Assembly: GCA_009786455.1 (NCBI GenBank)
Contig: WQTD01000012.1
Span: forward strand, 10,983 to 66,191
Source: Treponema sp.
GTDB lineage: Bacteria > Spirochaetota > Spirochaetia > Treponematales > Breznakiellaceae
DNA: 55,209 nt
Direction of reading: 5' to 3'
This document shows positions 18,199 through 34,348 of this stretch, piece by piece. A program made the translations under genes and the position numbers. A model generated the notes under the pieces. The model saw only the letters and a list, made by a program, of their open reading frames with translations. It ran no database searches and was not told where the DNA came from. Positions within the stretch are counted from its first letter, which is position 1. Each line of letters opens with the position of its first letter.

Positions 18199-19752
18199 TT
18201 ATTCATCAGTTGATTCATTTCTGTTTGTGCGAAATGGCATAACAGGAAATCCGTTTTTTGCGAAAAGGGGGGTCGCGCCGAATTTCACCCACGCATACCG
18301 CGCTCTTTGCGGATGCCGCAGCTTTTCGCAGTGAATAACCACAGCATTGCCGTCTATAACAGCCTTCGCTGGAAAATAGGAACCATCCGCTTCTGCGGCT
18401 TCAAAAATTGAAGCAATGTCATCTTTGCTTCCGCGGAATTCCAAACCGCTTTCGGCGTTTTTAAAATGAATGCGCAATGTGTTTTCCTGCGCTTCCGCCC
18501 AATCAAACACAGGTCCGTCAGCGTCGATCTCTTTTCCATAAACTTTTTTTAACGCTTGCAGCGCAAGCCGAAGACCCACTGTCTTTTTATCAAGCGGATG
18601 GATATTATCAAATTCACCGCAATCAATTATAACTGAAAGCCCTGAATTCGCAATGTCAAGCGAAGCAAGGTACTGTTGTTCCCTCATTAAACACCAAAGC
18701 CGAGAAGGACAGCCCGAAGCCATTTCTTCACTGGAAGCATACATCGGCAGCTGAACAAACAAAAAAGGCAGACTTTGATCATTCCAGTCATTACGCCATT
18801 GATTTACAAGATAGTACATCATTTCGCGGTAGTCATCCGCGCGCTGATCATCTTCTTCTCCCTGATAATAAAGAAAACCTTTTATCGCAAAGGGAGCTGT
18901 TCGTTTTATTCGCGCGGTATGTAAATTAACGGGACAATAAGGACTGGTTCTTCCGGCAGGCTGGGGCCAGGGACATTGTCCGCATTCCCTGTTAAGAATT
19001 TCATTACTTACATCAGGTTCTTTTTCTTTTCTCCTGCGGACGCGCTCATCCCAGGCCTGCCACTCCATGACATATTCTTCCATCGCAGCGTTGTACTGTT
19101 CGTCTGTCTTGCCGCCGATCCTGTTATTATAATCGTCAATAAAACGCTTTCCCGCTTTGCTTTTTTCAAGCTGCTGCCGACTCATCCATGCGCTTATTGA
19201 TGTGCCGCCCCATGAACAGTTTATAATTCCAACCGGTATTCCAATTTCCCTGTTAATTTTCTGCACAAAAAAATAAGCGGCTGCACTCAGTATTGAAGCG
19301 GTATCGGGCGAGCAGACCTGCCATTTGCCTGCCGCTTCTTCGCGCAGATAATCATCGTCTATAACAGCGCGTTTAACTACCTGATAAAAACGAATGTTTT
19401 GATTCGCACAGGCGGCAAGCTCAGCGTTTCCGTCTTTGCAATTGATCAGCTCCATCTCCATATTGCTCTGTCCGCCGGCAAACCACACATCTCCTGTTAA
19501 TACATTTGTAAAACGTATTTCGTTTGAATCGTTTTTTATAACAAGATTTCCTTTTAAGCCGGCGGACAGAGGAGGGAGAAAAACATTCCATTTGCCGCTT
19601 CTAACAGCGGTTTCCGCTTTAAGACATTTTCCTTCACTTTCCCAAATCACGCAAACAGAACCGGCATCACCTGTTCCCCAGACAGGAACAGGCTTACCAT
19701 GCTGTAAAATCATATCGTCAGAAAATATTGAAGCAGCTTTAAATGGAATCAT
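18199..19752 (-). CDS. Sialate O-acetylesterase-type SGNH esterase
   Basis: The 517-residue protein has the SASA-type SGNH hydrolase fold. Block I is GGQSNMEMEL with the nucleophile Ser near residue 96. Glycine- and Asn-containing blocks follow (INCSWGGTSISAW; FLYYQGEEDDQRADDYR), and the catalytic Asp/His block is IHPLDKKTVGLRLALQ. These enzymes remove acetyl esters from sugars: sialic acids in the founding members, hemicellulose sugars in many anaerobes. No signal peptide is seen, so it should act in the cytoplasm after uptake. It lies 7 nt after the GH130 gene, so the two are co-transcribed. This supports deacetylation of an imported oligosaccharide before or after phosphorolysis. The substrate is inferred, not shown. 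Confidence 0.85.
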   Translation of the reverse strand: MIPFKAASIFSDDMILQHGKPVPVWGTGDAGSVCVIWESEGKCLKAETAVRSGKWNVFLPPLSAGLKGNLVIKNDSNEIRFTNVLTGDVWFAGGQSNMEMELINCKDGNAELAACANQNIRFYQVVKRAVIDDDYLREEAAGKWQVCSPDTASILSAAAYFFVQKINREIGIPVGIINCSWGGTSISAWMSRQQLEKSKAGKRFIDDYNNRIGGKTDEQYNAAMEEYVMEWQAWDERVRRRKEKEPDVSNEILNRECGQCPWPQPAGRTSPYCPVNLHTARIKRTAPFAIKGFLYYQGEEDDQRADDYREMMYYLVNQWRNDWNDQSLPFLFVQLPMYASSEEMASGCPSRLWCLMREQQYLASLDIANSGLSVIIDCGEFDNIHPLDKKTVGLRLALQALKKVYGKEIDADGPVFDWAEAQENTLRIHFKNAESGLEFRGSKDDIASIFEAAEADGSYFPAKAVIDGNAVVIHCEKLRHPQRARYAWVKFGATPLFAKNGFPVMPFRTNRNESTDE

Positions 19753-19759
19753 TTATAAG

Positions 19760-20752
19760 TTACATCTTATTTGCTTTTACCCAGGCGATGATTTCATCGA
19801 CTTTCCCGAATACAAGACCGGTCACTGTATCAGCGCATCCGTAATAAATCGCAACTTTTCCTGTGTCTTTATCTACCAGAGAAGCGACTGGGAATGTAAC
19901 ATTGGGTACATCGCCGGCAAGTTCATAAATTTCACGAGGATTGATGATATACGGCTTAGGACGCGCTATTACTTTCCACGGTTTATCAAGATCCATCAAT
20001 GCCGCGCTGAAGGAATAAACAAAACCGTTACAACTTGTCAGTACGCCGTGATAAAACACAAGCCATCCTTCGCTGGTTTCAATCGGACAGGGACCCGCGC
20101 CGATCTTGGTGCTCTGCCAGCCTCCGTACGGTCCCATTACATGACGGTGTTTCCCCCAGTAAATCATGTCAGGGCTTTCTGAATACCAAATATCGCCGAA
20201 GGGAGTATGCCCCGAATCGCTCGGACGGCTGTACATGGCGTAATTTTTCCCGATTTTACGGGGAAAGAATGCTCCGTTGCGGTTATAGGGCATCATGGGG
20301 TTTTCCATCTGATAAAATTTTTCAAAATCATGCGTATAACCGATGCCGAGACAGGGACCGCTGTAACCGTTACACCAGATCAGATAATAACGATCCTCAA
20401 TAAAAATTACACGCGGATCGTATTTGTAATCAGAATCCGGAAGTTCAGGATCAGTCTTTATAAACTGAATTGGATTATCTTCAATCTTCCAGTTAATGCC
20501 GTCTTTGCTTTTTCCTGCGTGAATATCCATGTGACGTGCGGTATCATCACAGCGGAATACGCCTGCGAACTCTCCCTTAAAAGGAACAACCGCGCTGTTA
20601 AAAATACTGTTGGATGTTAAAGTTAAATTCCTCGGAATAATAGGGTTTTTTGTATAACGCCACATCAGTTCTTTTTTGGGATCACTGGAAGACGGTCTGT
20701 CTTCCCATGGAATATTGGGAATGCCTGCGCCGTTTACTATAAGGCTGCTCAT
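19760..20752 (-). CDS. GH130-family glycoside phosphorylase (beta-mannoside type)
   Basis: The 330-residue five-bladed propeller enzyme shows GH130 features: an early NPIIPRN, a VFRCDD segment, YDPRVIFIEDRYYL, the HDF-type strand FEKFYQMENPMMPYNRNG, and the phosphate-site region KIGAGPCPIETSEGWLVFYHG. Known members split beta-1,2- or beta-1,4-linked mannosides with phosphate, giving alpha-mannose 1-phosphate; some act on mannosyl-N-acetylglucosamine. The exact subgroup cannot be fixed by eye. No signal peptide is present, so it works in the cytoplasm. The ATG follows AGGAG located just beyond the U-tract of a strong terminator, so expression depends on read-through or on RNA processing. It is paired with the downstream esterase. 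Confidence 0.85.
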   Translation of the reverse strand: MSSLIVNGAGIPNIPWEDRPSSSDPKKELMWRYTKNPIIPRNLTLTSNSIFNSAVVPFKGEFAGVFRCDDTARHMDIHAGKSKDGINWKIEDNPIQFIKTDPELPDSDYKYDPRVIFIEDRYYLIWCNGYSGPCLGIGYTHDFEKFYQMENPMMPYNRNGAFFPRKIGKNYAMYSRPSDSGHTPFGDIWYSESPDMIYWGKHRHVMGPYGGWQSTKIGAGPCPIETSEGWLVFYHGVLTSCNGFVYSFSAALMDLDKPWKVIARPKPYIINPREIYELAGDVPNVTFPVASLVDKDTGKVAIYYGCADTVTGLVFGKVDEIIAWVKANKM

Positions 20753-20765
20753 AATTTCTCCTTTT

Positions 20766-20802
20766 AAAAAAAATCCAGCACTTAAGTTTTTAAGTGCTGG
20801 AT
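20766..20802 (-). terminator. Intrinsic terminator between the ABC operon and the GH130-esterase pair
   Basis: A perfect 13-bp stem (20773-20785 with 20790-20802) has a 4-nt loop, followed on the minus strand by seven to eight U. It is 23 nt after the binding-protein stop and only 14 nt before the GH130 start, so it should reduce expression of the two enzymes relative to the transporter. Confidence 0.88.
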
Positions 20803-20825
20803 CAAATGTCGACTTTAAGTATTAA

Positions 20826-22184
20826 CTAGCGGTTAAAATCGTCAAGCGATGCCTGGAACCTTGGCGTCCATGATTCAACAACCTGTGATGGATTTGTGTT
20901 TCCAAGACCGTTTCTGAAATCATTAATAAAATCATCAAACGGGTATCCCGGGATCAAAGCAAAATTTCTTGGGGTAAGGTAACGTGCATCCCTTGACATT
21001 GCAACAGTTTCTGTTACGTCACGGAGGTTACGGGAAGCCCAATAATGTCCCTGCAGCCAGTCTGTGTCTGTCGGTGTAAACCAGAGTTCAGAGGCTTTAA
21101 GAATAACGTCAACTTCTGAAGGAGAGAAAATGGCGGGAACAACATAAACAGGATCAGAAGAGTCCATGCGAAGCTGACTTGATCTTGGACCTCTTGGCGG
21201 CAGAACGTATCCGCCGTCAAACTGATCCTGCGCCTGTCCTTTTCTCCATTCAGGATCAAATGTCATCGCAACGCGCTGATCATAGAATGCCGTCCAGTTC
21301 CAGCCCCAATCATATGAAGGCGTAGTCAGAATGAGACCTTCATTAATAAGCGTGTTGTAGAATGCCAAAGCTTCAAGGAACGCAGGGGTATTGGTCGCAT
21401 TCACGGCTTTGCCTGACGCGTCAAAGCTGACAAAGTTCGCGCCGTTACCATAAACAAGTCCTATTAATACTTCACGAGCGTCGTCACAGGGAAGCGCATA
21501 AATATCAGTAATACCGTCATTGTTTGTATCGCGGGTTAATTTTCTGCAGACATCAAGGAAGGTATCCCATGTCCAATTATTGTTCTTCTGTAAATCATAG
21601 AGATAATCCGGGCTTAAACCGACATCAGTTAAATGTTTTGTGTTAAAGAATATCATCGCCTGCTGCCAGCCGTTATTTGGGAGACCGTATTGCCAGCCGT
21701 ACTGTTTTCCGTTAAAGGTCATAAGCTGCTCTATAACACCGTTATACATCGGCGTTACTTCGGCAATAGGTTCGCGGGTTTTAAAATTAACTGCGGTACT
21801 GTCACTGACAGGATAAAGAAGTCCCTGCTTGTAGAGCGTAACAGCCATATTCGCCGCAACTTCATAAATGCCGTATGTTTTGTTTCCCGCCATGATATTG
21901 CTTGCAACGAGCGGAAGATAATTATCATAATCAGACAGCTCAACTACCTCAAATTTGAAATCATTCTCACTTAAGATTTTCCTTCTCCATTCAAGGTCTT
22001 TTTCTTCGCCTTCATTTCTTGGCTCAAAAGTGTCTACATTCCAGGTTGACCACCATGATGATACTTTAATATCCGCCCCTTTAAGTTTTACTCCCTTTGA
22101 TCCGCACCCTGTAAATACGAGCATACTCATTACAAGGATAAGCGCAAAAAGGATTAAACCAATTTGACCTGTTCTTTTTAACAT
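20826..22184 (-). CDS. Extracellular sugar-binding lipoprotein (family 1 SBP)
   Basis: From ATG 22184 the product is 452 residues. It has a lipoprotein signal peptide (charged start, hydrophobic core, lipobox MLVFTGC), so it is anchored to the membrane facing the periplasm. The mature part follows the family 1 solute-binding pattern (IKVSSWW, FEVVELSDYDNYLPLV, an early hinge, many Trp such as WGWNWTAF and WTWDTFLD that could stack on sugars). A longer frame from 22292 was rejected, because AGGAGG sits 7 nt before ATG 22184 and the signal peptide begins there. It closes the nine-gene operon and follows its cognate permeases, which is typical for the most abundant component. Confidence 0.9.
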   Translation of the reverse strand: MLKRTGQIGLILFALILVMSMLVFTGCGSKGVKLKGADIKVSSWWSTWNVDTFEPRNEGEEKDLEWRRKILSENDFKFEVVELSDYDNYLPLVASNIMAGNKTYGIYEVAANMAVTLYKQGLLYPVSDSTAVNFKTREPIAEVTPMYNGVIEQLMTFNGKQYGWQYGLPNNGWQQAMIFFNTKHLTDVGLSPDYLYDLQKNNNWTWDTFLDVCRKLTRDTNNDGITDIYALPCDDAREVLIGLVYGNGANFVSFDASGKAVNATNTPAFLEALAFYNTLINEGLILTTPSYDWGWNWTAFYDQRVAMTFDPEWRKGQAQDQFDGGYVLPPRGPRSSQLRMDSSDPVYVVPAIFSPSEVDVILKASELWFTPTDTDWLQGHYWASRNLRDVTETVAMSRDARYLTPRNFALIPGYPFDDFINDFRNGLGNTNPSQVVESWTPRFQASLDDFNR

Positions 22185-22236
22185 GTCATTCCTCCTAAAA
22201 ATTTTTATCTCAAACGGCAAACAACCGCATTGAAAC

Positions 22237-23241
22237 CTACATCTTAATCCCTGTCTGGCTGAGGGATTCAACAAATGTTCTCTGCGCAACAAGGTATAAA
22301 AGCACCAATGGTATAAGAAACAGTATCATGCCGGTAGCGACAACAGCCTGCACATATCCAATCGGAGGCTGAGCCATTACGCCTCCGCTCCCCGATCCTA
22401 CAGCATTTATGCTTGCCCAGTAACGGAAAAAACTCTCGGTAAGCCGGCTTAACGAAATCGGCATCATCATATAACCGCGTAAAAACAAGGATGAAAAAAT
22501 ACTGTCCGTCCATTGCCACACAAAGGAAAACAAAAAGCAGGATGTTACCATTGGAAGCGCATCCGGAAGCATTATCCTTCCGAATGTATGAAGTCTTCCG
22601 CATCCGTCAACATAGGCGGCTTCTTCCAGTTCTTTGGGAACACCCCTGAAATACTGGCGCAGCAGAAATATATACAATCCGCTTTTTAAACCCATCGCAG
22701 TCGCGGAAAGAAGAAAATAACCTGTTAACGTCCCAAGTAAATTTATATTCCTGCCGGAAATAAGCTTAACTATCCCGAATATATCAAAAAACTGGAAATT
22801 CAAATACAGAGAAGAAAGAATTGTCTGCGGAGGAACAATAATTATAAGGAACACACACATGAAAAGCACATTCCTGCCGGGGAATTTATAACGCGCAAAT
22901 CCATAAGCCGCCAGCATACAGGAAGTTACCTGCAGCGCAGCGCTGATTACGATAATAATTATCGACTGAAAAAGCGTAGGCCAGTATTTCATCAGATTCA
23001 TTGCAATTTTATAATTATCTGTAGAGAAATTACGAGGAATGCTGATTACAGTCGCATCATAAAGATCAACCTCTGGCATAAAACTGACAGAAATCTTGTC
23101 CAATAAAGGCTGCATGATAAGAAAACAAAACCCGAAAAGAAGAATGGCGCGGAATATCTTATAAATAACATCAACAATATTATTCTTTACAATGTTCAAT
23201 GAATTGGAACCGGTTCTCGCGGTGACTACATTATCACTCAT
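22237..23241 (-). CDS. Carbohydrate ABC transporter permease (MalG/UgpE type)
   Basis: The 334-residue inner-membrane protein has six predicted helices and the cytoplasmic EAA loop EEAAYVDGCGRLHTFGRIMLP, through which it contacts the ATPase. The N-terminal 35 residues are polar and precede the first helix (FRAILLFGFCFLIMQPLL). It overlaps the preceding permease by 8 nt, so the two form one heterodimeric channel with the 452-residue binding protein downstream. No ATPase gene is present in the cluster; a shared MsmK-type ATPase elsewhere is the usual solution. Confidence 0.93.
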   Translation of the reverse strand: MSDNVVTARTGSNSLNIVKNNIVDVIYKIFRAILLFGFCFLIMQPLLDKISVSFMPEVDLYDATVISIPRNFSTDNYKIAMNLMKYWPTLFQSIIIIVISAALQVTSCMLAAYGFARYKFPGRNVLFMCVFLIIIVPPQTILSSLYLNFQFFDIFGIVKLISGRNINLLGTLTGYFLLSATAMGLKSGLYIFLLRQYFRGVPKELEEAAYVDGCGRLHTFGRIMLPDALPMVTSCFLFSFVWQWTDSIFSSLFLRGYMMMPISLSRLTESFFRYWASINAVGSGSGGVMAQPPIGYVQAVVATGMILFLIPLVLLYLVAQRTFVESLSQTGIKM

Positions 23242-24211
23242 AATAATACACCTTCTTTGAAACCAATCCCATCGTAACCCCTATAACAATTATGACTATA
23301 AGAAAATAAAACCACGCCATGGCTGCTGAATAGCCAAAATCCAGCTGCTGTGTTAGAGCAAGGAATATCTTGTTCATAACGCGGTTATCTGTCCTCAGGA
23401 AGAAGTCTACCACACTATATACTACATTGACAAGTATTAATGAACTCACCATGGGGAAGGTTATCTTCCAGAAACATTCCCAGCTTGTAGCTCCTTCTAT
23501 CTTGGCGGCTTCGAACATACTCGGCGGAATTGTCTGAAGAGCGGAAAGGAAAATAATGATCTGTATCCCCGATGCCATGGCAATGGTGTATATTTGATTG
23601 ACAATCTGGAATATATATCCCATAAACCTGCTTGCCGCTCCTTCTACAACAAGAATCTCCTGTAAAACTCCCGTTATCGAAGATTTCATTTGATTACTGT
23701 CTTTAATGGATTGTGCAATACTTTGTAAAAGAGCATTATTGGCTTCAAGCCCTATCAAAACGCCGGAAGATAAAATAACAGGCAGGAAGAAAATCGCCCT
23801 GACAAGACCTCTTGCCTTGAACTCCTGATTTAAAAGAAGGGCGATAAAAAGACTGAAAATAATGATTGCAGGCACTACAAGCACCATACGTACCAGTTCT
23901 TCAACAAGAAGACGATTAAATTCAGGATCCACAGCAAGCGCACGTTCTAGATTTCCAAGTCCGATAAAGTCAAGAATAAATCCGTAATTAACAACATCAA
24001 TGCTGACCTTGGTAAAAATCATTCTGAAAGATTCGAAGATCGGTATAAGCATGAACAGAATAAAACCAATAAGAAAAGGAAGAATAAACAAATAACCCGC
24101 ACGGGCATTTTTCCCTTCCAGAGTAAGGCAAAGTTTTTCTCTTTTCACATGGAAATATTTCGGGAGAAATCGCAGAATGAATTTATCTACAATAAAGTCT
24201 TTGGCTTTCAT
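23234..24211 (-). CDS. Carbohydrate ABC transporter permease (MalF/UgpA type)
   Basis: The 325-residue inner-membrane permease has six main helices and EAA loop FEAAKIEGATSWECFWKITF. A soluble N-terminus of about 40 residues precedes the first helix (GYLFILPFLIGFILFMLIP). A loop of about 70 residues between the third and fourth helices (QSIAQSIKDSNQMKSSITG) is longer than in many relatives and could touch the binding protein in the periplasm. Its start codon overlaps the stop of the DUF5696-type gene by one base, so translation is coupled. Partner of the next permease. Confidence 0.93.
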   Translation of the reverse strand: MKAKDFIVDKFILRFLPKYFHVKREKLCLTLEGKNARAGYLFILPFLIGFILFMLIPIFESFRMIFTKVSIDVVNYGFILDFIGLGNLERALAVDPEFNRLLVEELVRMVLVVPAIIIFSLFIALLLNQEFKARGLVRAIFFLPVILSSGVLIGLEANNALLQSIAQSIKDSNQMKSSITGVLQEILVVEGAASRFMGYIFQIVNQIYTIAMASGIQIIIFLSALQTIPPSMFEAAKIEGATSWECFWKITFPMVSSLILVNVVYSVVDFFLRTDNRVMNKIFLALTQQLDFGYSAAMAWFYFLIVIIVIGVTMGLVSKKVYYYE

Positions 24212-26739
24212 TAATTCCCCCGCCCTAATACAGTGTAATTATTCGCGTTAATAAATCTGCCGCCGTACTCAACAGTAAAATTATTGGTGTTTACGGCAAT
24301 TCTTGTCCCGTCTTCGTATTCAGTTACTGTAACTCCGTTTGACACAATTTCATGATTTACAATAGTCTGATTATAAAGATGCCCGAGATCAGCGCTTAAC
24401 TGCCGCACCAGCCTGTCCGCGTCTCCAATCCATTTACTGTATACATTTGCGTAAAACTGCCTGAACTTGGTTTCCTGCAGGATTTCAGTTTCTTCGGTCA
24501 TAAAACTGAAGTACACCCCTGCTCCGCTTTCTATGGTTTTTAATAAATGATACGTGTAATCCTCTGCAAGATTTATTGCTTTTCCGGCATACGGCACAAG
24601 ACCGTGTAAAACCATCGGATAAAAGGGGACTGAAACATCAGTAATGCCAAAACCCTGACAGTCAAGCGGTAAATCCACAATGAAATCCGCCCAGGGCGCG
24701 GCATAAGCATGACCGGAAAGAAGCATAATTCCGGTTCCTGAATTCCGTAATTGCTCGAGTTTCTCCTGTCTCATTTTCATTGAGGTTTCGCGGCTTATAT
24801 ATTTTCTTTCATTGTAATCGCCTGCCAGCCTTGAACCGATATTTCGGAACGCAACATTGTTAAATCCAAAGTTATCAGACTTATCGGTAAAGCTGTCGAT
24901 CAATGACATCATCGTATCCGGCCGGGCTACATAGCTTAATTTACCCCAGCGCGCTCTCTCTCCGAACCAGACAAAGCTGTACGGATATCTTTGAATGCGT
25001 TCGCGGCTGATATACCGTGAAGCGTCATTATAAAGGCTGAAACCGTCAAAAGCTTTTTTATCTTTCATAAAAAAGAAATCAACTTCCGGATAAAGTTCAA
25101 ACCCGTTTGAATTCGCGGCGTTAACAAGATCGTTAAAATTTTTTCTGCTGCCAAGAGTCCGTATTAGTTTTATGCGCGTGGGAATTGAATGATCAACGCT
25201 CCGGTTAAACCAGCCGTTTAATTTTATATTCACATTTTTCCATCCAAGAGCGGAAAAATTATTAACCATGTCTGCGGCTTCACTGTAGGAAGTTAACTTT
25301 AAAGGCAGGTCAAAAGGTATGCCAAGACGGTGCTGGGTTTTATTGACCGCTCCGGGAATTTCCACTGCAATCTGCAGACCGCTCTGAGCGCGCCTGTTCA
25401 TCGCCGGAAATTTATTTACAAACCATTTGCGGTATTCATTTGCCATGCCGACATATCCGTCATTTTCACAGACAACATACCGTAAGGTAATTCCTTCACC
25501 TTCGGGCAGAGACCTTTCATATTGATAAACATCCCTCTGCGATTTTCCTGAAATATTCATTAATTCGCTTTTTACCATGGAAAAACGCGCATAAACATTA
25601 TTCCATGAACTGTTACGGCCTGATACGTCAGCGCGCACATTGGAATATGACGCTCCGTTCTCCATGATGCACAAAAGAGCGTTTCCGTTTTTCTGTATGC
25701 CGAAAGCGGGGAAGGGAGATCTGTTGTCGGAAACAACCGCCTTGCGGACAAGTCCTTCATCCCATCCGTATACAATACTGTTGTAAGACGTTTGATTTTG
25801 TCTGCCGTTGTTAAAGTAAATCAGAGCTCCGCTTCCGTCCGGCACCAAAAGATAGCCTTCATCTTCAAGACCTCCCGCGCCCATATAAGGCATAACGGAA
25901 AGCGTTGTAATCGGATTGTTTGAGCGGTACGCTATTTTATCAAAAGGTATATTTAGGACAAGGGATTTGCCTTCCAGCGAATAACGGAACGTTATGTTAA
26001 ATGCAGGTCTTTCAGCGCTTGCGAGGGTAGGATAATAGGCGACATCCTCAAGATAATCATCATAAGTATATCCGACGGCGGCAAAATATTTTTCATATTC
26101 GGCTTTCTGATATTCCTGGGCTATCGGCGATAATACATAAATATTTCTGCGGTTAAGATCGGGATACATTGCCAAAAGCGAGTCTCTGTCGTCGTCACGG
26201 CGAAGGCTGTTAATGTTATAAAGCCGGTAACCGGCATTAACAAGGCTCTTCTCGCCCGCGCTCATTTTATCAATAAATTCTTTCATTCTCTCTTCCGGTA
26301 CTGCCGGAGGGATAACATAAGTGCGTTCGAGATTGCCAACTGAATAGTTTACTTCCAGAGCGCCGTCTTTTATGCCGTACTCATATGCGCCAAGTTTAAC
26401 GCTTTGCTCGCTTGAATAAAGAGTCTGTCCTATTCCGTAAACATTGGCATATTCAAGAAAAAAAATCGAATCCATCATGTTTTTGGTTACAGGGTCTGCG
26501 AGATTATCTTCTCCGCCGGGAAGAGAACGCCATTGTGAACCATTGGCTTTATTGACGAGAATTATTTCCGTAGTTTCAGGCAGAAATATAAGTGAAAGAT
26601 ATTCATTTTCCAGAACAACTTCTTCGGTGCTGCCATCGTATTCGTATATAGTAACATTTTTTGACGCATAAGGTCTTCCGCCACAAGCGGTCAAGGCAAG
26701 TAAAACAATTGTTATCAGAAGCCAAACAACCTTTTTCAC
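24211..26739 (-). CDS. DUF5696-type lipoprotein with TIM-barrel-like segment
   Basis: The 842-residue lipoprotein (lipobox LLALTAC, residue about 19) starts with beta-rich modules (residues about 30-300) containing EVVLENEYLSLIFLPETTEI and a string of strand-forming segments. A region from about residue 470 reads like a glycosidase-type (beta/alpha)8 barrel: LPLKLTSYSEAADMVNNFSA, WKNVNIKLNGWFNRS, FELYPEVDFFFM, then MMSLIDSFTDKSDNF and DLPLDCQGFGITDVSVPFYP. The domain is assigned to the DUF5696 family from memory of its typical context. A catalytic function is plausible but no acid pair can be named. It is exported and surface- or periplasm-facing, between two transporters in a carbohydrate operon, so a role in glycan binding or cleavage is inferred. 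Confidence 0.65.
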   Translation of the reverse strand: MKKVVWLLITIVLLALTACGGRPYASKNVTIYEYDGSTEEVVLENEYLSLIFLPETTEIILVNKANGSQWRSLPGGEDNLADPVTKNMMDSIFFLEYANVYGIGQTLYSSEQSVKLGAYEYGIKDGALEVNYSVGNLERTYVIPPAVPEERMKEFIDKMSAGEKSLVNAGYRLYNINSLRRDDDRDSLLAMYPDLNRRNIYVLSPIAQEYQKAEYEKYFAAVGYTYDDYLEDVAYYPTLASAERPAFNITFRYSLEGKSLVLNIPFDKIAYRSNNPITTLSVMPYMGAGGLEDEGYLLVPDGSGALIYFNNGRQNQTSYNSIVYGWDEGLVRKAVVSDNRSPFPAFGIQKNGNALLCIMENGASYSNVRADVSGRNSSWNNVYARFSMVKSELMNISGKSQRDVYQYERSLPEGEGITLRYVVCENDGYVGMANEYRKWFVNKFPAMNRRAQSGLQIAVEIPGAVNKTQHRLGIPFDLPLKLTSYSEAADMVNNFSALGWKNVNIKLNGWFNRSVDHSIPTRIKLIRTLGSRKNFNDLVNAANSNGFELYPEVDFFFMKDKKAFDGFSLYNDASRYISRERIQRYPYSFVWFGERARWGKLSYVARPDTMMSLIDSFTDKSDNFGFNNVAFRNIGSRLAGDYNERKYISRETSMKMRQEKLEQLRNSGTGIMLLSGHAYAAPWADFIVDLPLDCQGFGITDVSVPFYPMVLHGLVPYAGKAINLAEDYTYHLLKTIESGAGVYFSFMTEETEILQETKFRQFYANVYSKWIGDADRLVRQLSADLGHLYNQTIVNHEIVSNGVTVTEYEDGTRIAVNTNNFTVEYGGRFINANNYTVLGRGN

Positions 26740-26747
26740 TTTTCCTC

Positions 26748-27407
26748 CTATATAACCCTGAATAGAATTTCTTTATACAGCGATATAAAATAAGCAATCG
26801 TATCGCTGATTAAGCTGAAGAAAACAACAAAAATAAACACTATAATGCCCATCCCGACAACTGTAAGAAGACTGGAAAGAATGGTTTTTCCCATGCTGTA
26901 ATCATGAATCATCATCATTCCGGAAAGTATCAGCATACCTGTCCATAATATGGAAAAACCGGCGAGGAACCAGTAAACGGCGCCTTCTTCATAAGTGATA
27001 ACCTGACTTAATAAAATCATTATGAAATTAATTATTACAGACGGAACCAGCGCATAGGCAATCGCCATGTATATGTCGCTCATCCTGCCTTTACCGTCCA
27101 TCAGGGTTGTAAGGCTCCAGTTCGCAACTGTCCACAAAAGAACGGGAACAATCGTACGTAAAAATATAATAACCGCATTGAAATTCTCCATGTTAATTCT
27201 GACAAACATAAAACTTGACAATGTAAGGCGTAATACTTCCACCAAAATGGAAGCTACTACAATCACGTTAGCGGCGGCAATTGATCCTCTTTTTTCATTG
27301 GTTAAATCCCAAAAACCATCCAGAGGATGGGTACATACATACAATGAGAATTTTAAGGTTTTCCCCAGACGCTGCCACCAGCTTTTATCAGTAAAAAATA
27401 ATGTCAT
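26748..27407 (-). CDS. Yip1-family membrane protein
   Basis: The 219-residue protein has five predicted helices: residues about 46-66, 82-100, 120-142, 152-172 and 180-205. A soluble N-terminus includes WQRLGKTLKFSLYVCTHPLDGFWDL, which matches the entry of Yip1-domain proteins in bacteria (HPxDGF before a loop GSI). Yip1 domains are membrane scaffolds; their bacterial role is not known. It overlaps the upstream NHL/TPR gene by 4 nt and is followed 8 nt later by the DUF5696-type gene, so the three are translated as a unit. The conserved coupling suggests a physical complex. Confidence 0.7.
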   Translation of the reverse strand: MTLFFTDKSWWQRLGKTLKFSLYVCTHPLDGFWDLTNEKRGSIAAANVIVVASILVEVLRLTLSSFMFVRINMENFNAVIIFLRTIVPVLLWTVANWSLTTLMDGKGRMSDIYMAIAYALVPSVIINFIMILLSQVITYEEGAVYWFLAGFSILWTGMLILSGMMMIHDYSMGKTILSSLLTVVGMGIIVFIFVVFFSLISDTIAYFISLYKEILFRVI

Positions 27408-28894
27408 GCTTCCCTGATCTCCTTGACAAGTTTGATGGATTGTTTTACTGCGATGGGAACCAGGACTACTACAGCTAAAATTAAGAGTATCTTCCAGAGA
27501 TTTATCTCAATCCATTGTTTCCGGTACAATTGAAACGCCTTCCCGTAACCTTCACGGAAATGCTTGAGCTTATAATAGCTCATGGCTTTTTTATATTCAC
27601 CCTGACGAAGAGCCGCCCTGCCTATGCCGATGTACGCAAGATCATAATTTCCGTTCATTTTTAAAACTTCTTCCCAAATCTTCGCGGAAGATTCGTACCG
27701 CCCCGAGCGGTATTCATCGAGAGCTTCGTTTATTCTTGCCCCGTAACCGGTAAGCTCAAACTTTGTAAGAGCGGCATTTCTTGAATCCAGCGCGTAAATG
27801 GAATATCCCAGTTTGTCTATGGCAACAGGTATGTTAAAAGAGCCTTCCCTGTTGCCAAGTCCTCCGAAAGCATAGAGAAGGTTTCCCTGAAAATCATAAA
27901 CAAAAATTCGCCCTCGCGTTCTGTCAAAGCAGGCGTATGAATCATTGTCAAAAGCGACGACATCAATAAATCTTGATCGCCCCGATACGCCGCCTGCAGA
28001 ACCATAAACGAGATCGCCGACAGGTTTTTTATACCCGTTACGGATTAATATATCCTGCCCCATTGCATTAAGGCGCCGTACAGGATCGGTAATATCCGTT
28101 TCAACAGTTTGAATTTGACCGGCAGTCTGCTGGGCAGCCGCGCTTGTAACGCTTGACGCGTTGGTTACATAAATGAAACCGTCGTTATCAATATAAAGAT
28201 TGTTATATTCAGTGGGAATAAAAAGCTCCATGCGATCCCGCTGCGCCTGAGTAGAAAAGAATCTCCAGACAAAATCAACAATGTTGAATTTAACTTTATT
28301 GGCTCCCATATAACCGGAGAATTCACCGCGGCTGTTAAACTCCATTAATCCCTTGTTGACATTTCTGACCTGTACGAAAATTCTGTCAGCGAAATCAACA
28401 ATTAGTTTAAGAGGCTGGAATTCAACAAACTCATCAAGGCTTTCATCGTCCGGTTTTGTTATCGCGTAAATAAAATTCCATTCACTGTCAAGCTTTAAAA
28501 TCCGCAGATTGTTGGTATCGGCGATGTAAATAAAACCTTCCCTGCACTCAAAGATATCCATCGGATAGTTTAAAGGCGATTCCGCGCCGTTGATCATTAC
28601 ATATTTAACTTCTTTGACAAGAACATGCTCTCCATTTTGAACTTCAATATGCAGAATTCTGTTATTTCCCGAATCGCAGACATATATCCGGTTTTCACGG
28701 ATAAAAAGCCCCTGCGGTTCCCTCAGATGACCTACGCCGAAAGAAGTGCCGAGAATATAATGACTTACGCGGTAGGCATCAGGCGAGGCGACCTGTTCCT
28801 GCCAATAATCATAATTATATGTGAAGTTGGTGGGTTCCGCAAAAACAGGAAATAAAATAAAAACACAAAGTAAAAATAAACCGATGTTTTTCAT
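27404..28894 (-). CDS. Exported NHL-repeat beta-propeller protein with TPR and C-terminal membrane anchor
   Basis: The 496-residue protein has a signal peptide (residues 1-19, ending FAEP). NHL-like repeats cover about residues 55-365 (LREPQGLFIRENRIYVCDSG, NYPMDIFECREGFIYIADTN and FNIPVAIDKLGYSIYALDSR), which should form a propeller. TPR helices follow at about 390-450 (ESSAKIWEEVLKMN, GEYKKAMSYYKLKHF). A membrane helix near 470-488 places the C-terminus in the cytoplasm. Such a mix fits a sensor or scaffold that connects periplasmic ligand to a membrane complex; the ligand is unknown. It overlaps both neighbouring genes by 4 nt and lies between an importer and the Yip1 protein. Confidence 0.72.
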   Translation of the reverse strand: MKNIGLFLLCVFILFPVFAEPTNFTYNYDYWQEQVASPDAYRVSHYILGTSFGVGHLREPQGLFIRENRIYVCDSGNNRILHIEVQNGEHVLVKEVKYVMINGAESPLNYPMDIFECREGFIYIADTNNLRILKLDSEWNFIYAITKPDDESLDEFVEFQPLKLIVDFADRIFVQVRNVNKGLMEFNSRGEFSGYMGANKVKFNIVDFVWRFFSTQAQRDRMELFIPTEYNNLYIDNDGFIYVTNASSVTSAAAQQTAGQIQTVETDITDPVRRLNAMGQDILIRNGYKKPVGDLVYGSAGGVSGRSRFIDVVAFDNDSYACFDRTRGRIFVYDFQGNLLYAFGGLGNREGSFNIPVAIDKLGYSIYALDSRNAALTKFELTGYGARINEALDEYRSGRYESSAKIWEEVLKMNGNYDLAYIGIGRAALRQGEYKKAMSYYKLKHFREGYGKAFQLYRKQWIEINLWKILLILAVVVLVPIAVKQSIKLVKEIREA

Positions 28895-29763
28895 TCTTTT
28901 ATCCCCGAATTAGCCATTGTCTGCAGAACATTGCTCTGGGCCAGAATGAACATTACAAGCGGGACTATCATGACAAAAAGCCCGACTGCCGCTCCTACTC
29001 CTGCGCGGGCAACGCCGACTGTAATAATCTGCGAAAGCGCGTAAGGCAGCGTCTTTAGCTGTTCTGAATAAATAAAGTTTGAAGCCCTTGCATTCCAGAG
29101 AGCCTGCACAGAAAAGATCATGACCGTAAGCCACGCCGGCTTTATCATCGGCAGGACAATCCATGCGAATATACCAAATTCCTTTGCGCCGTCTACAGTT
29201 GCCGCTTCAAGAAGCGTATCGGGGATTGTGTCAATAAACTGTTTTAAAAGGAAGAAGCCCATCGGCATAGCGAAAGCCGGTATGATAATTGCAAGATAAG
29301 TATCAACCCATCCCAGCCATGCCATAACAAGGTAATTCGGAATTGCGGTTACATAGCCGGAAAACATTAGGGTAATAATTACGCCCTGAAAAAAAATCTT
29401 TGATCCGGGGAATTTGTATTTTGATACTACAAACGCTCCCATCGAAGCGACAACTATAAGCCCGACGGTTCCGATTGCTGTAACAAAAACCGTATTGAAA
29501 ATATAACGGGAAAATGTAACCCACGATTTACTCATAATAATGAACAAATCCTGGAAATTATTCATGGTAGGATTACGCACAAAAATATTGGGAGGAAAAA
29601 GAAAAATTTCGTTTAACGGTTTAAAAGCATGATTAATTGTAAAAACAAGGGGAAAGGCGAAGAATATGCCGAAAAGAGCAAGCAATGAAAATATAAAAGC
29701 GTCCCCTCCGTAGGAGCGGTTCAGCCTCTTGCCGCCTATTAATTTTTTTTGTTTCTTTGCCAT
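28891..29763 (-). CDS. Carbohydrate ABC transporter permease (MalG type), system 1
   Basis: The 290-residue permease has six helices, starting FIFSLLALFGIFFAFPLVF, and the cytoplasmic EAA loop LEAATVDGAKEFGIFAWIVLP. The periplasmic loop after the first helix (NEIFLFPPNIFVRNPTMNNF) is usual for this family. Its start lies 9 nt after the upstream permease's stop and the stop overlaps the NHL/TPR start by 4 nt, so it belongs to the same message. It partners the 310-residue permease to import the ligand of the 961-residue binding protein. Confidence 0.94.
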   Translation of the reverse strand: MAKKQKKLIGGKRLNRSYGGDAFIFSLLALFGIFFAFPLVFTINHAFKPLNEIFLFPPNIFVRNPTMNNFQDLFIIMSKSWVTFSRYIFNTVFVTAIGTVGLIVVASMGAFVVSKYKFPGSKIFFQGVIITLMFSGYVTAIPNYLVMAWLGWVDTYLAIIIPAFAMPMGFFLLKQFIDTIPDTLLEAATVDGAKEFGIFAWIVLPMIKPAWLTVMIFSVQALWNARASNFIYSEQLKTLPYALSQIITVGVARAGVGAAVGLFVMIVPLVMFILAQSNVLQTMANSGIKE

Positions 29764-29772
29764 ATATACCTC

Positions 29773-30705
29773 TTAAGTTCCCACACGCCTGAGCATTTTT
29801 TGAATGACAGCGTTACACACAATCATCGTGAGGAAAAGAATAGTCGCAATGGCGGAAGCGTAACCCATTTCGAAACGGATTGATCCGTAGTCAATAAGAT
29901 GGTTAACAACCGTATGCACCGCGTAATCCGTACTTGGGAATCCCGCAAGAACAATAGTGACATCGGCGACTCCAAAAGACTGGGTAATCGCCATAACAGC
30001 CCCGAACATTAACATGCCTTTCATGTTGGGGAGGGTAATATACCAAAGCTCCTGCCAGCGGTTGGTAATGCCGTCAACGAGACCCGCTTCATAGAGAGTC
30101 GGATCAATTGTGGAAAGACCGGCGATAAAAGCGAGGAAGCCTGCGCCCAAACTCATCCACAGAATAACAATCAGCATTACCGGCATCATAAATTTTGGAT
30201 CCGTCAGCCAGAGAACAGGCTGATCGAGAATACCGAGATTCATAAGAACGCCGTTTATGTAACCGTATGCATCGCCGGAAAAAATCAGCGCCCAAATCAT
30301 ATAAGCGCCGCCGGAAATTGAAGGCGCGTAAAAAATCAATGTAACAACAGCGCGGATATAACGCGGGAGCTCATTAATAAACCATGCAAACAAAAACGCC
30401 GCGATATAACCGACAGGACCTGTTATCGCCGCCATTATAAACGTGTTTTTTAGTGCAATTAAAAATACATCATCTGCAAGCAGCAGGTTGATGTAGTTGC
30501 GCAGACCGATGAATCTGGGCGGCTCAAGGATATTGAAATATGTAAAACTGTAAAGAATTGAAATAACCAGAGGCGCTACAAAGAAAAGAACAAAAACCAC
30601 CGCGTAAGGCGCGAGGAAAAGGTAACAAATACGGTACCTGTAAATCTCCCTTGCCCTTATTTCATCGGCTTCTTTTCTTTTATCAAAATATCTGGCAAGA
30701 CTCAT
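29773..30705 (-). CDS. Carbohydrate ABC transporter permease (MalF type), system 1
   Basis: The 310-residue protein has six predicted helices and EAA loop YEAGLVDGITNRWQELWYIT. The N-terminal 27 residues are charged and cytoplasmic (SLARYFDKRKEADEIRAREI). It lies 8 nt after the 961-residue binding protein gene and is followed by its partner permease, as expected for a complete importer lacking only the ATPase. Confidence 0.94.
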   Translation of the reverse strand: MSLARYFDKRKEADEIRAREIYRYRICYLFLAPYAVVFVLFFVAPLVISILYSFTYFNILEPPRFIGLRNYINLLLADDVFLIALKNTFIMAAITGPVGYIAAFLFAWFINELPRYIRAVVTLIFYAPSISGGAYMIWALIFSGDAYGYINGVLMNLGILDQPVLWLTDPKFMMPVMLIVILWMSLGAGFLAFIAGLSTIDPTLYEAGLVDGITNRWQELWYITLPNMKGMLMFGAVMAITQSFGVADVTIVLAGFPSTDYAVHTVVNHLIDYGSIRFEMGYASAIATILFLTMIVCNAVIQKMLRRVGT

Positions 30706-30713
30706 TATTCCCC

Positions 30714-33599
30714 CTATTCCAGACCGAATTCTTTCCGTTTTTTGATTAATTCGTCGTTAATTGTGATGGTATAATCCAACAGGGTTTCCCGCGTATCCAT
30801 ACCTTCGTTCAAAATGCGGCGCACTGCGTTTGTAATATGGCGGGAAACAAAATAACCGCCGGGAACTTCCGGTATGCCGACTGCCCATGAACGCTGCTCG
30901 TCAAGAACCGTCATCTGCTGCGAACCCCACGGAAGACGCCTGAACGCATCGTAATTAGCGGTAGGATAACGCGCTGCGGAGCCCATTAAACTTTCAAGCT
31001 CGCGGCCGAACCTTAACTGGGTATCGGCGCTAATCCACCACTTTAAAAATTCCCATGCCAAATCGGGACGCTGCGCATCGGAAATAATCATGGAAGCGAG
31101 CGTTCCTGTTGACACAGATCTGTCTATTGTTCCGTCGAATTTTTTAAGACCGGGCATTCTGGAGAAACCCCAAAGACCGCGAATTTCCGGAGCAAAAACT
31201 TCAAGCGTGTTATACCACGTGTAATCTGCGAACCCCAGAGGCATTTCACCTGTACGGAAACGGTTGACAAAGTCGAAAACTACAGGGGTTTTGTAATGGG
31301 TATAAAATTTTGTATAAAAATCAAATGCGTCAATGGCGACTTCGGTGTCAAGAAGAGCGCGTGAACCTTCAGCGTTAAAAAGACTCCCTCCGCGCTGAAA
31401 AAGATGCGCAAGGAAGTTCGAGAAATCGGGAGCAGCGGCATTCGCGACCGAAGGGACGCCCACATTCATGTTATTTTTTTGAATTATGGGAAGAATATCA
31501 ATAAGATCATCCCATGTATCAGGAAGATCGATCTCAAGTTCTTCCATAATGTCCTTTCTGTAATACATGACATGGAAGTACTGAGTTTCCGGAAGACCGT
31601 ATACGCCGCCCTGAAACCTGAAAGGAACAATTACACTCTCATGAAGCTGGCTGATCACGTCGTTATAACCGGGGAATTTTGAAATATCCAGAACAGCTTT
31701 ACGGACAGCGTAATTTATAACATCGCCCTGGGGAACCGTAAGCACAATATCGGGACCTGTGCCGGCTACGACAGCGGGCATAACAGCGTCAAGGGCGACA
31801 AGTTTGACATTCACCCTGATTCCTGTAAGGGGAGTAAAAGTATCGTCAACCATCGCTTTCAAAACAGAGCTTTGATCGCGCCCCGCGAGAATCCATACTT
31901 CGACAACATCGGGATTATCATCGTATTTATTGCCGAGCATATCGTAATCAACAAAGAATGACGCGAAGAATGAACGTATCTCATGCCATGTGGTAACAAG
32001 GAAATTTTCCCTAATCGGCGGGAGAGCGGCTTTTTCCGCGCTTATCAAAATGTAATCAATATCAAGCTGGCTTTCTGAAAGAGCGATTAGGCTGTCGCCG
32101 AGAGAACTGATGTTTGCCTTGAAGTTAACAAGCGTTCTGGGGATTTTATCCGGACGCCTGAGGAACATTTCAAGCTGGCGGGCAAGCGTTAATGTTCCGG
32201 CTGCCTGCGCGCTTCGTTCACCGGAGTAGCGGGTAAGATCATCCACCAGTTTGTAGAGTATCCTGCTTTCCAGTTCCATCGCTTCCATTATTTCAGGATA
32301 AATTTCATTTACCCGGTAATCGCGGTATATATCAGGTTCAGGTCCTGTCAGAACAAGTATTTTACGGTAAATCGCATTCAGGCGGTAAACGCTCTCTTCC
32401 ATTACATTTAACACTTCACCCATTCCGCCGAGGGTTGCTTTAAGCCTGATGGTATGAGAGCCCCTGTTGAGGGGAAGCAGTATGTCTCCCTGATCGTCGC
32501 TTAATGTGTTGTATCTCCACTTGTTGGTGTATTTAAAGGGAACAGCGGCGAATTCCTGAACAGGAATTTTCCCGTTTATCATTACAGTACGGTTCGATAC
32601 AAAGCCGCGGTTATAATTCTGCCGCCCCTTGATGGAAATACGGTACATTCCGTCGTCAGGAACGTCAAAATCCCACTCTATCCACTGCCCTGATACGCGC
32701 CACGGTTCGCCTCCGATCATGTTAAGACGGATTGTCGCGACGCTTGCAGGCTCTGTCGCACCCGAAGATCGATCATAAATCGCATAAAGCGAAGCGTCAG
32801 AGCGGCGAGCTGCCCTTTCACCCTGAAGTTTCACAATAAAATTATCCCGGGTATTACCGTATGCGTTTGTATTAACTCCGGCTATAAACTCACGATAGGA
32901 GGGTGTGCGGACAGGAGCGGCTAATGAAAGAGAGCGTATGGCTATCGGTTCATTAATGCCCGTAAGCCTGATGGTATTCTCGCCTTCCTTTAAATAAAAC
33001 GAATAAGGATCGGCTATATAACCAAGGGAATCGCTCAACCAGACATTTTCCCAGCGCGGCAGTTCTATCTGCGAAGGACGGATTTCATTTCCCTGATTGT
33101 CAAAGCGGCTTAACCCGGCGTCTCCCCAAACACGGGGAAACATCATTCTGTCGGCGCCGAGAAACGGAATTTCACCGTTAATCATTAAGCTGCGTTCAAT
33201 TGTCACTCCCCGCGAAGGCAGGGGGAAATATTCAAGATAAATATTATAAAGACCGTTTCTGTTGATATTTACGGTGTATTCAACAAAACTTTCTTCTTCA
33301 GTACGCAGAACACGCGCTTCTCCCTCAAAATTTTCAAGTACAGAAACACCTCCGGCGGAACTCCATGAAAAAATATCAACCGGAATATCATATTGACCTG
33401 CGGGAATGTGCCCGTAACGTTCCATGTAGCGGGAGTAAATATTGGTTCTTCCGGCGCTAACGCCGCTTAAATTATAACCAGCGTATTTCGCTGAAAAATC
33501 ATCCTCCGGTCTTCCGGCTACCAAAAAGATGAGCGCTATCACTGCGATAACAGCGGCAATTATTATCAGTTTTTTTAAGACGTTTAATCTGTTCATCAT
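30714..33599 (-). CDS. Giant solute-binding protein with two N-terminal carbohydrate-binding-like modules
   Basis: The 961-residue protein begins with a membrane helix (residues 11-29, IIIAAVIAVIALIFLVAG), which could be an uncleaved anchor. Two beta-sandwich modules follow, each with the strand order of CBM6/35-like domains. The first (about 85-220) contains VEYTVNINRNGLYNIYLEYF and SLMINGEIPF; the second (about 275-405) contains WIEWDFDVPDDGMYRISIKG and TVMINGKIPV. A helical linker spans about 410-560. From about 560 to the end a family 1 solute-binding domain runs, with VVEVWILAGRD, LVALDAVMPAVVAGTGPDIV, FRFQGGVYGLPETQYFHVM and WEFLKWWISADTQLRFG. Typical binding proteins have only this last part (about 420 residues). 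The fusion would let one protein dock on a polymer and hand over oligosaccharides. First gene of the operon. Confidence 0.85.
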   Translation of the reverse strand: MMNRLNVLKKLIIIAAVIAVIALIFLVAGRPEDDFSAKYAGYNLSGVSAGRTNIYSRYMERYGHIPAGQYDIPVDIFSWSSAGGVSVLENFEGEARVLRTEEESFVEYTVNINRNGLYNIYLEYFPLPSRGVTIERSLMINGEIPFLGADRMMFPRVWGDAGLSRFDNQGNEIRPSQIELPRWENVWLSDSLGYIADPYSFYLKEGENTIRLTGINEPIAIRSLSLAAPVRTPSYREFIAGVNTNAYGNTRDNFIVKLQGERAARRSDASLYAIYDRSSGATEPASVATIRLNMIGGEPWRVSGQWIEWDFDVPDDGMYRISIKGRQNYNRGFVSNRTVMINGKIPVQEFAAVPFKYTNKWRYNTLSDDQGDILLPLNRGSHTIRLKATLGGMGEVLNVMEESVYRLNAIYRKILVLTGPEPDIYRDYRVNEIYPEIMEAMELESRILYKLVDDLTRYSGERSAQAAGTLTLARQLEMFLRRPDKIPRTLVNFKANISSLGDSLIALSESQLDIDYILISAEKAALPPIRENFLVTTWHEIRSFFASFFVDYDMLGNKYDDNPDVVEVWILAGRDQSSVLKAMVDDTFTPLTGIRVNVKLVALDAVMPAVVAGTGPDIVLTVPQGDVINYAVRKAVLDISKFPGYNDVISQLHESVIVPFRFQGGVYGLPETQYFHVMYYRKDIMEELEIDLPDTWDDLIDILPIIQKNNMNVGVPSVANAAAPDFSNFLAHLFQRGGSLFNAEGSRALLDTEVAIDAFDFYTKFYTHYKTPVVFDFVNRFRTGEMPLGFADYTWYNTLEVFAPEIRGLWGFSRMPGLKKFDGTIDRSVSTGTLASMIISDAQRPDLAWEFLKWWISADTQLRFGRELESLMGSAARYPTANYDAFRRLPWGSQQMTVLDEQRSWAVGIPEVPGGYFVSRHITNAVRRILNEGMDTRETLLDYTITINDELIKKRKEFGLE

Positions 33600-33668
33600 T
33601 TCTATGACTGCCTCTTAATGAAAAATACTCTACACAGAACAGATAGCCGGCGGGATTAATTAATAAAT

Positions 33669-33680
33669 TTTGACGTCAAA
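33669..33680. promoter_or_regulatory. Perfect 12-bp palindrome in the leader of the glycan operon
   Basis: TTTGACGTCAAA is fully self-complementary and lies about 32 nt downstream of the predicted transcription start and about 70 nt before the first ATG. Its position suits a repressor operator. The binding factor is unknown. Confidence 0.4.
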
Positions 33681-33718
33681 CCGCTGACTGTAAAAATGAA
33701 TTGTGATCAATTTTAGAT

Positions 33719-33747
33719 ATAGTAACCTTAAAATATACAACCGTCAA
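33719..33747 (-). promoter_or_regulatory. Promoter of the nine-gene glycan-uptake operon
   Basis: On the minus strand: TTGACG (33747-33742), a 17-nt spacer and TACTAT (33724-33719). It gives a leader of about 110 nt before ATG 33599, containing the palindrome at 33669-33680. Confidence 0.6.
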
Positions 33748-33782
33748 CATTTTTCTGTTTTAAGATATGGATATTAACGTAA

Positions 33783-33827
33783 AACACCTTATTAAAACGA
33801 AAAATCCTTCCGTTTTAATAAGGTGTT
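33783..33827. terminator. Long perfect hairpin between the small lipoprotein gene and the glycan operon
   Basis: A 17-bp perfect stem (33783-33799 with 33811-33827) has an 11-nt loop. On the minus strand it is followed by UUUU, and it lies 67 nt after the stop of the 33895-34197 lipoprotein gene. It should end that transcript before the glycan operon promoter. Confidence 0.75.
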
Positions 33828-33894
33828 AATCAAGAGGCTGAACAATTCAGCGGTAAATTTGTATAAATACTGAAAACTCAATCAATAATACAAA

Positions 33895-34197
33895 TTACTC
33901 GGCATACGCTGTAGTTCTGGTAAAGACAAAATAAAATTTCGTTATCGAAGTGATTTTCCTGCCTGCAGCTTCGGCGTCTTTCACTATAGCGGCGTATTCA
34001 GTGTACCCTGAATCTACAAGACCAAACCAAACAGTATAAGACGCGATTTCCATACCGCCTACCGAAGCGGCGCCAGCCTGTGAAAAAAGCCCATGAGCAT
34101 CGGCTGTACCTCCGATGGAACTCCCAGTCATACAACCGGTAAATGAAACCATTATCACTGCCAACGCAATAATTCCCAACAACATAAATTTTTTCAT
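33895..34197 (-). CDS. Small lipoprotein of TRL-like type
   Basis: The 100-residue product has a lipoprotein signal peptide with lipobox VSFTGC (Cys near residue 22). The mature part (SIGGTADAHGLFSQAG, then ASYTVWFGLVDSGYTEYA and KITSITKFYFVFTRTTAYAE) resembles the TRL-like family of short bacterial lipoproteins, of unknown function and often found in several copies in treponemes. The resemblance is from motif memory. GGAGAG stands before the ATG. It has its own promoter (34261-34289) and a hairpin terminator, so it is monocistronic. Confidence 0.7.
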   Translation of the reverse strand: MKKFMLLGIIALAVIMVSFTGCMTGSSIGGTADAHGLFSQAGAASVGGMEIASYTVWFGLVDSGYTEYAAIVKDAEAAGRKITSITKFYFVFTRTTAYAE

Positions 34198-34260
34198 AAA
34201 ATTCTCTCCTTAAAGAATAGGCAAAAAACAATGAACCTGTACGGGATCATTCATTTACTC

Positions 34261-34289
34261 ATTGTAGTCAAATAAATCACTTTTGGCAA
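34261..34289 (-). promoter_or_regulatory. Promoter of the TRL-like lipoprotein gene
   Basis: Minus strand TTGCCA (34289-34284), a 17-nt spacer and TACAAT (34266-34261). The leader to ATG 34197 is about 57 nt and carries AAGGAG. Confidence 0.6.
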
Positions 34290-34348
34290 GTGTTTTTTAA
34301 GTATTATAGGCGTATGCTCATATAAAGCGTTCCCCCGGAAATTGACAC

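Follow-up and report, generated by a model that had tools for sequence, protein, structure and literature searches.

A Yip1-domain protein, an NHL/TPR protein and a DUF5696 lipoprotein as predicted constituents of a conserved nine-gene sugar-import operon

Introduction

Three closely linked genes encoding an NHL/TPR protein, a Yip1-domain protein and a DUF5696 lipoprotein lie between the permease genes of two sugar importers in a 55,209-nucleotide stretch of Treponema sp. DNA (GCA_009786455.1, contig WQTD01000012.1, positions 10,983 to 66,191; hereafter the window). This raises the question of whether the trio is a machine of its own, inserted between two importers, as a sequence-only reading of the locus had proposed, or whether it belongs to the importers themselves. 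A search of the openly accessible literature brought up no role for Yip1 proteins in bacteria, no paper on DUF5696 and no description of the trio or its surrounding cassette.

Results

The genes of the locus and the two hairpins that flank them are as follows.

33784..33826, minus strand: hairpin with a T tail, 5' of SBP1 (20-pair stem)
30714..33599, minus strand: SBP1, solute-binding protein (Pfam SBP_bac_1, E 2e-22)
29773..30705, minus strand: PermA, MalF-type permease (BPD_transp_1, E 4e-8)
28891..29763, minus strand: PermB, MalG-type permease (BPD_transp_1, E 3e-9)
27404..28894, minus strand: NHL/TPR protein (Pfam NHL, E 5e-9; TPR_16, E 2e-7)
26748..27407, minus strand: Yip1-domain protein, 219 aa (Pfam Yip1 PF04893, E 7e-12)
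24211..26739, minus strand: DUF5696 lipoprotein, GH129-like fold (Pfam PF18952, E 5e-176)
23234..24211, minus strand: PermC, MalF-type permease of the second importer (BPD_transp_1, E 1.6e-5; UgpA-like, E 1.5e-9)
22237..23241, minus strand: PermD, MalG-type permease of the second importer (BPD_transp_1, E 2e-14)
20826..22184, minus strand: SBP2, lipoprotein solute-binding protein (SBP_bac_8, E 5e-12)
20772..20803, minus strand: terminator-like hairpin 3' of SBP2 (14-pair stem, then a T run)
19760..20752, minus strand: GH130 mannoside phosphorylase, an associated catabolic gene (Pfam GH130, E 3e-67)
18199..19752, minus strand: probable acetylesterase (SASA-like), an associated catabolic gene (family read from the translation, no domain scan)

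The three open reading frames of the trio lie on the minus strand, with ends exactly as given by the sequence-only reading, which was equally exact in the 4-nt overlap between NHL and Yip1 (ATGA at 27407-27404) and the 8-nt gap between Yip1 and DUF5696, where AGGAGG-AAAA-GTG leads into the GTG start of DUF5696. The overlap between PermB and NHL is likewise 4 nt (ATGA), and at the DUF5696/PermC junction (TAATG) one base is common to the stop codon and the ATG of PermC; on this reading of the junctions, the coupling of the trio to the flanking permeases is as tight as that within it. Given that the coupling extends outward to PermB and PermC, the trio is better described not as inserted between two importers but as the middle of one nine-gene unit, coupled to permease genes on both sides. 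From 33599 to 20826 the order is SBP1-PermA-PermB-NHL-Yip1-DUF5696-PermC-PermD-SBP2, followed by the GH130 gene and the probable acetylesterase; SBP2 is read from the ATG at 22184, within a frame that is open up to a TTG at 22292. The terminator-like hairpin at 20803-20772 would close the unit and, given the coupled junctions and the presence of hairpins at both ends, SBP1 to SBP2 is treated here as a single putative transcription unit. The hairpin at the other end (33826-33784), about 185 nt 5' of the SBP1 start, could either terminate the preceding gene or act as a leader attenuator.

Both importers carry CUT1 features, namely solute-binding proteins of the SBP_bac_1 and SBP_bac_8 families and two permease pairs with EAA loops. 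The EAA motif is present in all four permeases (EAGLVDGITNRWQELWYITLP in PermA), and BPD_transp_1 exceeds the Pfam cut-off in three, with PermC scoring just below it (25.2 bits against 26.4). SBP1 is a 961-aa protein with β-sandwich N-terminal domains (CBM35/Golvesin_C-like), a helical spacer and a C-terminal SBP_bac_1 domain; it is anchored in the membrane by an N-terminal TM helix (11-29) without a lipobox, and its N-terminal family matches Golvesin_C in 19 and CBM_35 in 8 of 21 members (best E 1.7e-6). SBP2 has a lipobox at Cys27. No ATPase was recognised in the nine-gene unit. A single OB_MalK domain, indicating a MalK-type ATPase, was found in the genome, on another contig; since the genome is 86% complete, this count is a lower bound. 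A detached ATPase common to several CUT1 importers (MsmX) is an ordinary arrangement.

Comparison with the loci of 20 relatives, almost all of them from a single genus, shows the same order from PermB to PermD in every one, with SBP1 and PermA present wherever the fetched DNA extends that far; the most divergent of these loci (L050) has Yip1 fused into the NHL protein. The order recurs in other spirochaete genera and on plasmids of Butyrivibrio fibrisolvens and Paenibacillus cellulosilyticus. Across these 20 loci, eleven more that include the two plasmids, and the 80 genome loci and 40 further copies described below, SBP1-PermA-PermB-NHL-Yip1-DUF5696-PermC-PermD holds in nearly all loci of sufficient length. 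This conservation of gene order is far above chance. A DUF5696 profile built from five sequences, an alignment of nine very diverse ones having proved too divergent, found at least 554 relatives in 84,980 species genomes, of which the best 80, ranked by similarity to the query, were retained as a Firmicutes set; Yip1 or NHL-Yip1 lies directly 5' of DUF5696 in 73 of the 74 of these loci that have enough upstream DNA to be testable.

Given that the 80 loci had been ranked by query similarity, an unranked test was made in 20 whole Firmicutes genomes. These contain 75 DUF5696 proteins and 75 cassette-type Yip1 proteins, paired 1:1 with no orphan on either side, so that the members of the trio do not appear often alone, which would have spoken against the sequence-only reading. 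Within this set 38 of the Yip1 proteins are fused with NHL and 37 are separate, NHL matches fall at the same places except for fragments, repeat proteins and one NHL on another contig, and the count of the SBP1 N-terminal family equals that of DUF5696 in 18 of the 20 genomes. Forty further copies, read fully, all have Yip1, NHL and the two downstream permeases, and SBP1 with the two upstream permeases accompanies 37 of them. Among 296 spirochaete genomes the same 12 carry DUF5696 and cassette-type Yip1, a thirteenth having a weak, interrupted match to cassette-type Yip1 and no DUF5696, and in a set of 72,556 plasmids the two records with DUF5696 are also the two with cassette-type Yip1. The 1:1 relationship is limited to the Yip1 subfamily of the cassette; the wider superfamily occurs elsewhere, with matches in 7 of 14 control genomes, and DUF5696 exceeds its cut-off in none of them. 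Viral contigs gave no match to Yip1.

Together these counts show that the trio is inherited with two CUT1-type permease pairs, SBP1 and usually SBP2, and that it is inseparable from a nine-gene sugar-import operon across hundreds of Firmicutes and spirochaete genomes. Conserved operons indicate shared function, and on gene content and order it is nearly certain that the nine genes share one; physical contact among their products is what we infer. A natural reduction of the operon occurs in a 2.9-Mb Halanaerobiaceae MAG, which has ten DUF5696 copies with Yip1 and no member of the SBP1 family. The three copies examined comprise a fused NHL-Yip1, DUF5696, PermC, PermD and SBP2, with PermAB absent and unrelated genes upstream. 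This reduction indicates that the trio belongs first to the PermCD/SBP2 importer.

The proposed architecture of the trio, an exported propeller with a cytoplasmic tail, a polytopic protein and an exported TIM-barrel-like lipoprotein, was upheld in each part. The NHL/TPR protein has a signal helix, a β-propeller, TPR repeats and one C-terminal TM helix at 469-487, leaving in the separate form an exposed cytoplasmic tail of about ten residues. Yip1 scores 45.9 bits against a Pfam cut-off of 28.6, the match is found in all 23 aligned members, and its five hydrophobic segments (5 TM) are helices in the model too; structure models thus agree with the expected form of both proteins. On the plasmid of P. 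cellulosilyticus, NHL-Yip1 is one 719-aa protein, and the model of a fused homologue (pLDDT 90) contains the propeller, TPR helices, a long TM helix and then the Yip1 helices. The top PDB matches of this homologue are eukaryotic NHL domains (Thin, TRIM71); these fold-search matches are driven by the propeller only, and for the Yip1 part a sequence search brought up no relative of solved structure. In a tree built from 152 DUF5696 sequences (a quick search, with long branches flagged) the fused or separate state changes about nine times, and at least nine when L050 is counted as fused. Given this repeated fusion and fission, NHL and Yip1 very probably act jointly in a fixed ratio, and NHL-Yip1 may with high confidence be regarded as one functional protein. 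The single envelope machine that had been proposed therefore stands as a functional unit, given the 1:1 co-occurrence, the repeated NHL-Yip1 fusion and the constant order, but one that includes the importers.

The DUF5696 lipoprotein of the window has its lipobox at Cys19; in 80 mostly Firmicutes DUF5696 proteins a lipobox is present in 12, most having a signal or anchor helix instead. Its model (44-sequence alignment, pLDDT 89.6) has the barrel expected of it and more, being a supersandwich followed by a TIM barrel and a C-terminal β domain, as in GH129. The match to NagBb of family GH129 runs along the whole chain (Z 30.1, 571 residues, rmsd 3.9, 13% identity), and the next unrelated folds score Z about 20. 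At the sequence level, too, the DUF5696 profile picks up GH129 (E 1e-6 to 3e-8); Pfam Glyco_hydro_129 (PF11308) does not match the protein of the window, where PF18952 stands alone at E<0.1. A global profile alignment of full GH129 with DUF5696 was unsuccessful, and the GH129 positions were set from three GH129-family Paenibacillus proteins aligned over the barrel (E 1.6e-4), which assigns residue 633 of the window's protein to the nucleophile position and residue 674 to that of the acid/base, a Glu (E478 in NagBb). The window protein has N633 and L674, neither of them a GH129 catalytic acid. Among the 152 DUF5696 sequences the nucleophile position is D in 91 and the acid/base position E in 13; both acids occur together in five and neither in 53. 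Other acids are conserved, namely D641 (141 of 152), D701 (138) and E737 (148), and the set P300, G304, Y436, G509, W510 and E737, spanning the N-terminal domain and barrel, is conserved in 139-152 of 152. This pattern suggests that the pocket is retained for binding and that GH129-type catalysis has in general disappeared, so that DUF5696 is probably a glycan-binding pseudo-glycosidase, and in this genome quite likely a non-catalytic one. Given the conservation of D641, D701 and E737, an unconventional hydrolase is possible.

GH130 adjoins the cassette in most of the same-genus loci among the 20 relatives, an acetylesterase homologue occupies the same place in five of the 20, and a GH130 gene lies 3' of the cassette in several Lachnospiraceae loci. 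Glycan-related cargo families near cassettes are GH26, CBM65, GH53, GH10, GH38, GH43, GH20 and GH130, and GH26, a mannanase family, is among the commonest. Given the adjoining GH130 and the frequency of GH26, the substrate in this genome is likely to be β-manno-oligosaccharides. The GH130 link is not universal, Butyrivibrio having GH43 and P. cellulosilyticus flavin oxidoreductases nearby, and since the cargo elsewhere is GH53, GH10, GH43, GH38 or GH20, the cassette is an importer platform of general use whose specificity varies. Confinement of the trio to mannan use was considered and rejected, as the cargo enzymes vary among loci. The P. cellulosilyticus plasmid cassette (NZ_CP054609.1) is accompanied by a UgpC-type ATPase and several LLM-class flavin-dependent oxidoreductases, the latter an unusual cargo for a sugar importer.

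Discussion

It is suggested that the trio provides obligatory accessory subunits of an oligosaccharide import operon, joined as a scaffold-plus-receptor physical complex, a reading to which we assign a probability of about 0.5. NHL-TPR and Yip1 would act as one protein, with the propeller and TPR outside, one TM helix and then five TM helices, forming a membrane scaffold that sits beside the permeases. DUF5696 would be a GH129-shaped, mostly non-catalytic receptor that captures oligosaccharide ends close to the membrane and hands the glycan to SBP2/PermCD and, in most genomes, to SBP1/PermAB as well, both permease pairs being powered by one MalK/MsmX-type ATPase encoded elsewhere. The imported sugar would here probably be a (partly acetylated) β-manno-oligosaccharide, cleaved by the GH130 phosphorylase. 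An extension of this reading, put forward tentatively, makes NHL-Yip1 the hub of a hitherto undescribed supercomplex, with two ABC importers served simultaneously by a single membrane scaffold and a single pseudo-glycosidase receptor.

The GH129/GH101 fold, matched along the whole chain, raises the possibility that DUF5696 is instead an active exo-glycosidase, anchored at the importer by NHL-Yip1 and trimming oligosaccharides there, perhaps by means of catalytic residues other than those of GH129. The D at the nucleophile position in 91 sequences and the three other acids conserved in over 90% would suit such an enzyme, and among GH129-type enzymes, where NagBb D435 and ZgGH129 D486 are the shared catalytic Asp, ZgGH129 has activity despite lacking the other NagBb catalytic residue (PMC5698469). 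However, this is unlikely for two reasons: the pair of GH129 acids survives in just five of 152 sequences and is wholly absent from 53, the window copy included, and a single fold is found beside cargo enzymes for very different glycans, which a common receptor role fits better than one linkage specificity.

A regulatory role is less probable still. Here the propeller would read glycan or SBP occupancy, Yip1 would gate or inhibit the permeases and DUF5696 would be the ligand receptor; the external propeller and TPR linked through the membrane to Yip1, and the invariant position between two permease pairs, are consistent with this. Nevertheless, the cytoplasmic tail of the separate NHL protein is only some ten residues long, regulation usually resides in separate LacI or AraC genes nearby, and the nine-gene unit showed no recognisable kinase, regulator or signalling domain. 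A trio that is mainly a sensor is ranked low for this last reason, and of the sensing and glycan-handling parts proposed by the sequence-only reading it is the glycan-handling that is retained. That the trio serves envelope or cell-wall glycan metabolism and travels with importers merely as a successful mobile operon, as up to ten cassette copies per genome and the two cassette-bearing plasmids might suggest, is very improbable: the copies are deeply diverged yet keep their order and 1:1 counts, those of Halanaerobiaceae retain the trio with PermCD although SBP1 is gone, and the cargo is directed at plant glycans.

As in CUT1 carbohydrate ABC importers (MalEFGK2-like), an extracellular solute-binding protein is combined with two BPD_transp_1 permeases with EAA loops, to which the unit adds a second permease pair, three conserved proteins and carbohydrate-binding-like domains on SBP1. 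The CUT1 maltose importer of Corynebacterium glutamicum is reported to need an extra integral membrane protein, MusI, which is not known to belong to Yip1 or to be partnered by a propeller protein or DUF5696. DUF5696 shares domain order and fold, and a weak profile match, with the GH129 family (NagBb and the GH129-like ZgGH129/DagB), and differs in its Pfam family, in not retaining the catalytic acids as a pair and in being a membrane lipoprotein or signal-anchored. Eukaryotic and archaeal Yip1 proteins likewise belong to PF04893, with five TM helices (four in the archaeal set), but are linked with vesicle traffic or with small archaeal membrane cassettes, in contrast to the sugar-import setting here (PMC8327215, PMC5898192).

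Through the exclusive 1:1 tie between glycan importers and a Yip1 subfamily that has repeatedly fused to an extracellular propeller, bacterial Yip1 proteins would gain a concrete job that can be tested. For DUF5696 the outcome would be a fold, a likely function and the prediction that it binds without hydrolysing. DUF5696, the marker of the cassette, is present in 68 of the 100 genomes sampled from one Paenibacillus family and in many gut Lachnospiraceae, often in several copies, so that a large share of oligosaccharide uptake may take this hitherto undescribed route. If the supercomplex proved true, Gram-positive bacteria and spirochaetes would have in it a functional equivalent of the glycan uptake machines that combine a receptor with a channel, and a bacterial Yip1 protein would for the first time have a defined role.

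A comparable setting is the gpPUL, defined by a degrading enzyme, a transporter and a regulator alone, in which an ABC importer lies beside glycan enzymes and regulators; Yip1, NHL and DUF5696 were not seen in the parts of that description consulted (PMC5320581). Nor did the trio come up in term searches of papers that deal with Paenibacillus JDR-2, with the use of xanthan or with β-mannan in Bacillota. The enzyme (GH130) and transporter are present in the window, and an unsystematic look at the open reading frames of 18199-35641 recognised no transcriptional regulator. Just upstream of the unit, 34349-35641 encodes a further solute-binding-like protein without permeases, a homologue of which lies upstream in one of the relatives' loci (L047) too, with 55% identity over half its length. 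The start of this frame is overlapped at 35454-35641 by a divergent plus-strand frame (35454-37226), and one of these two frames has probably been extended too far at its mechanical start.
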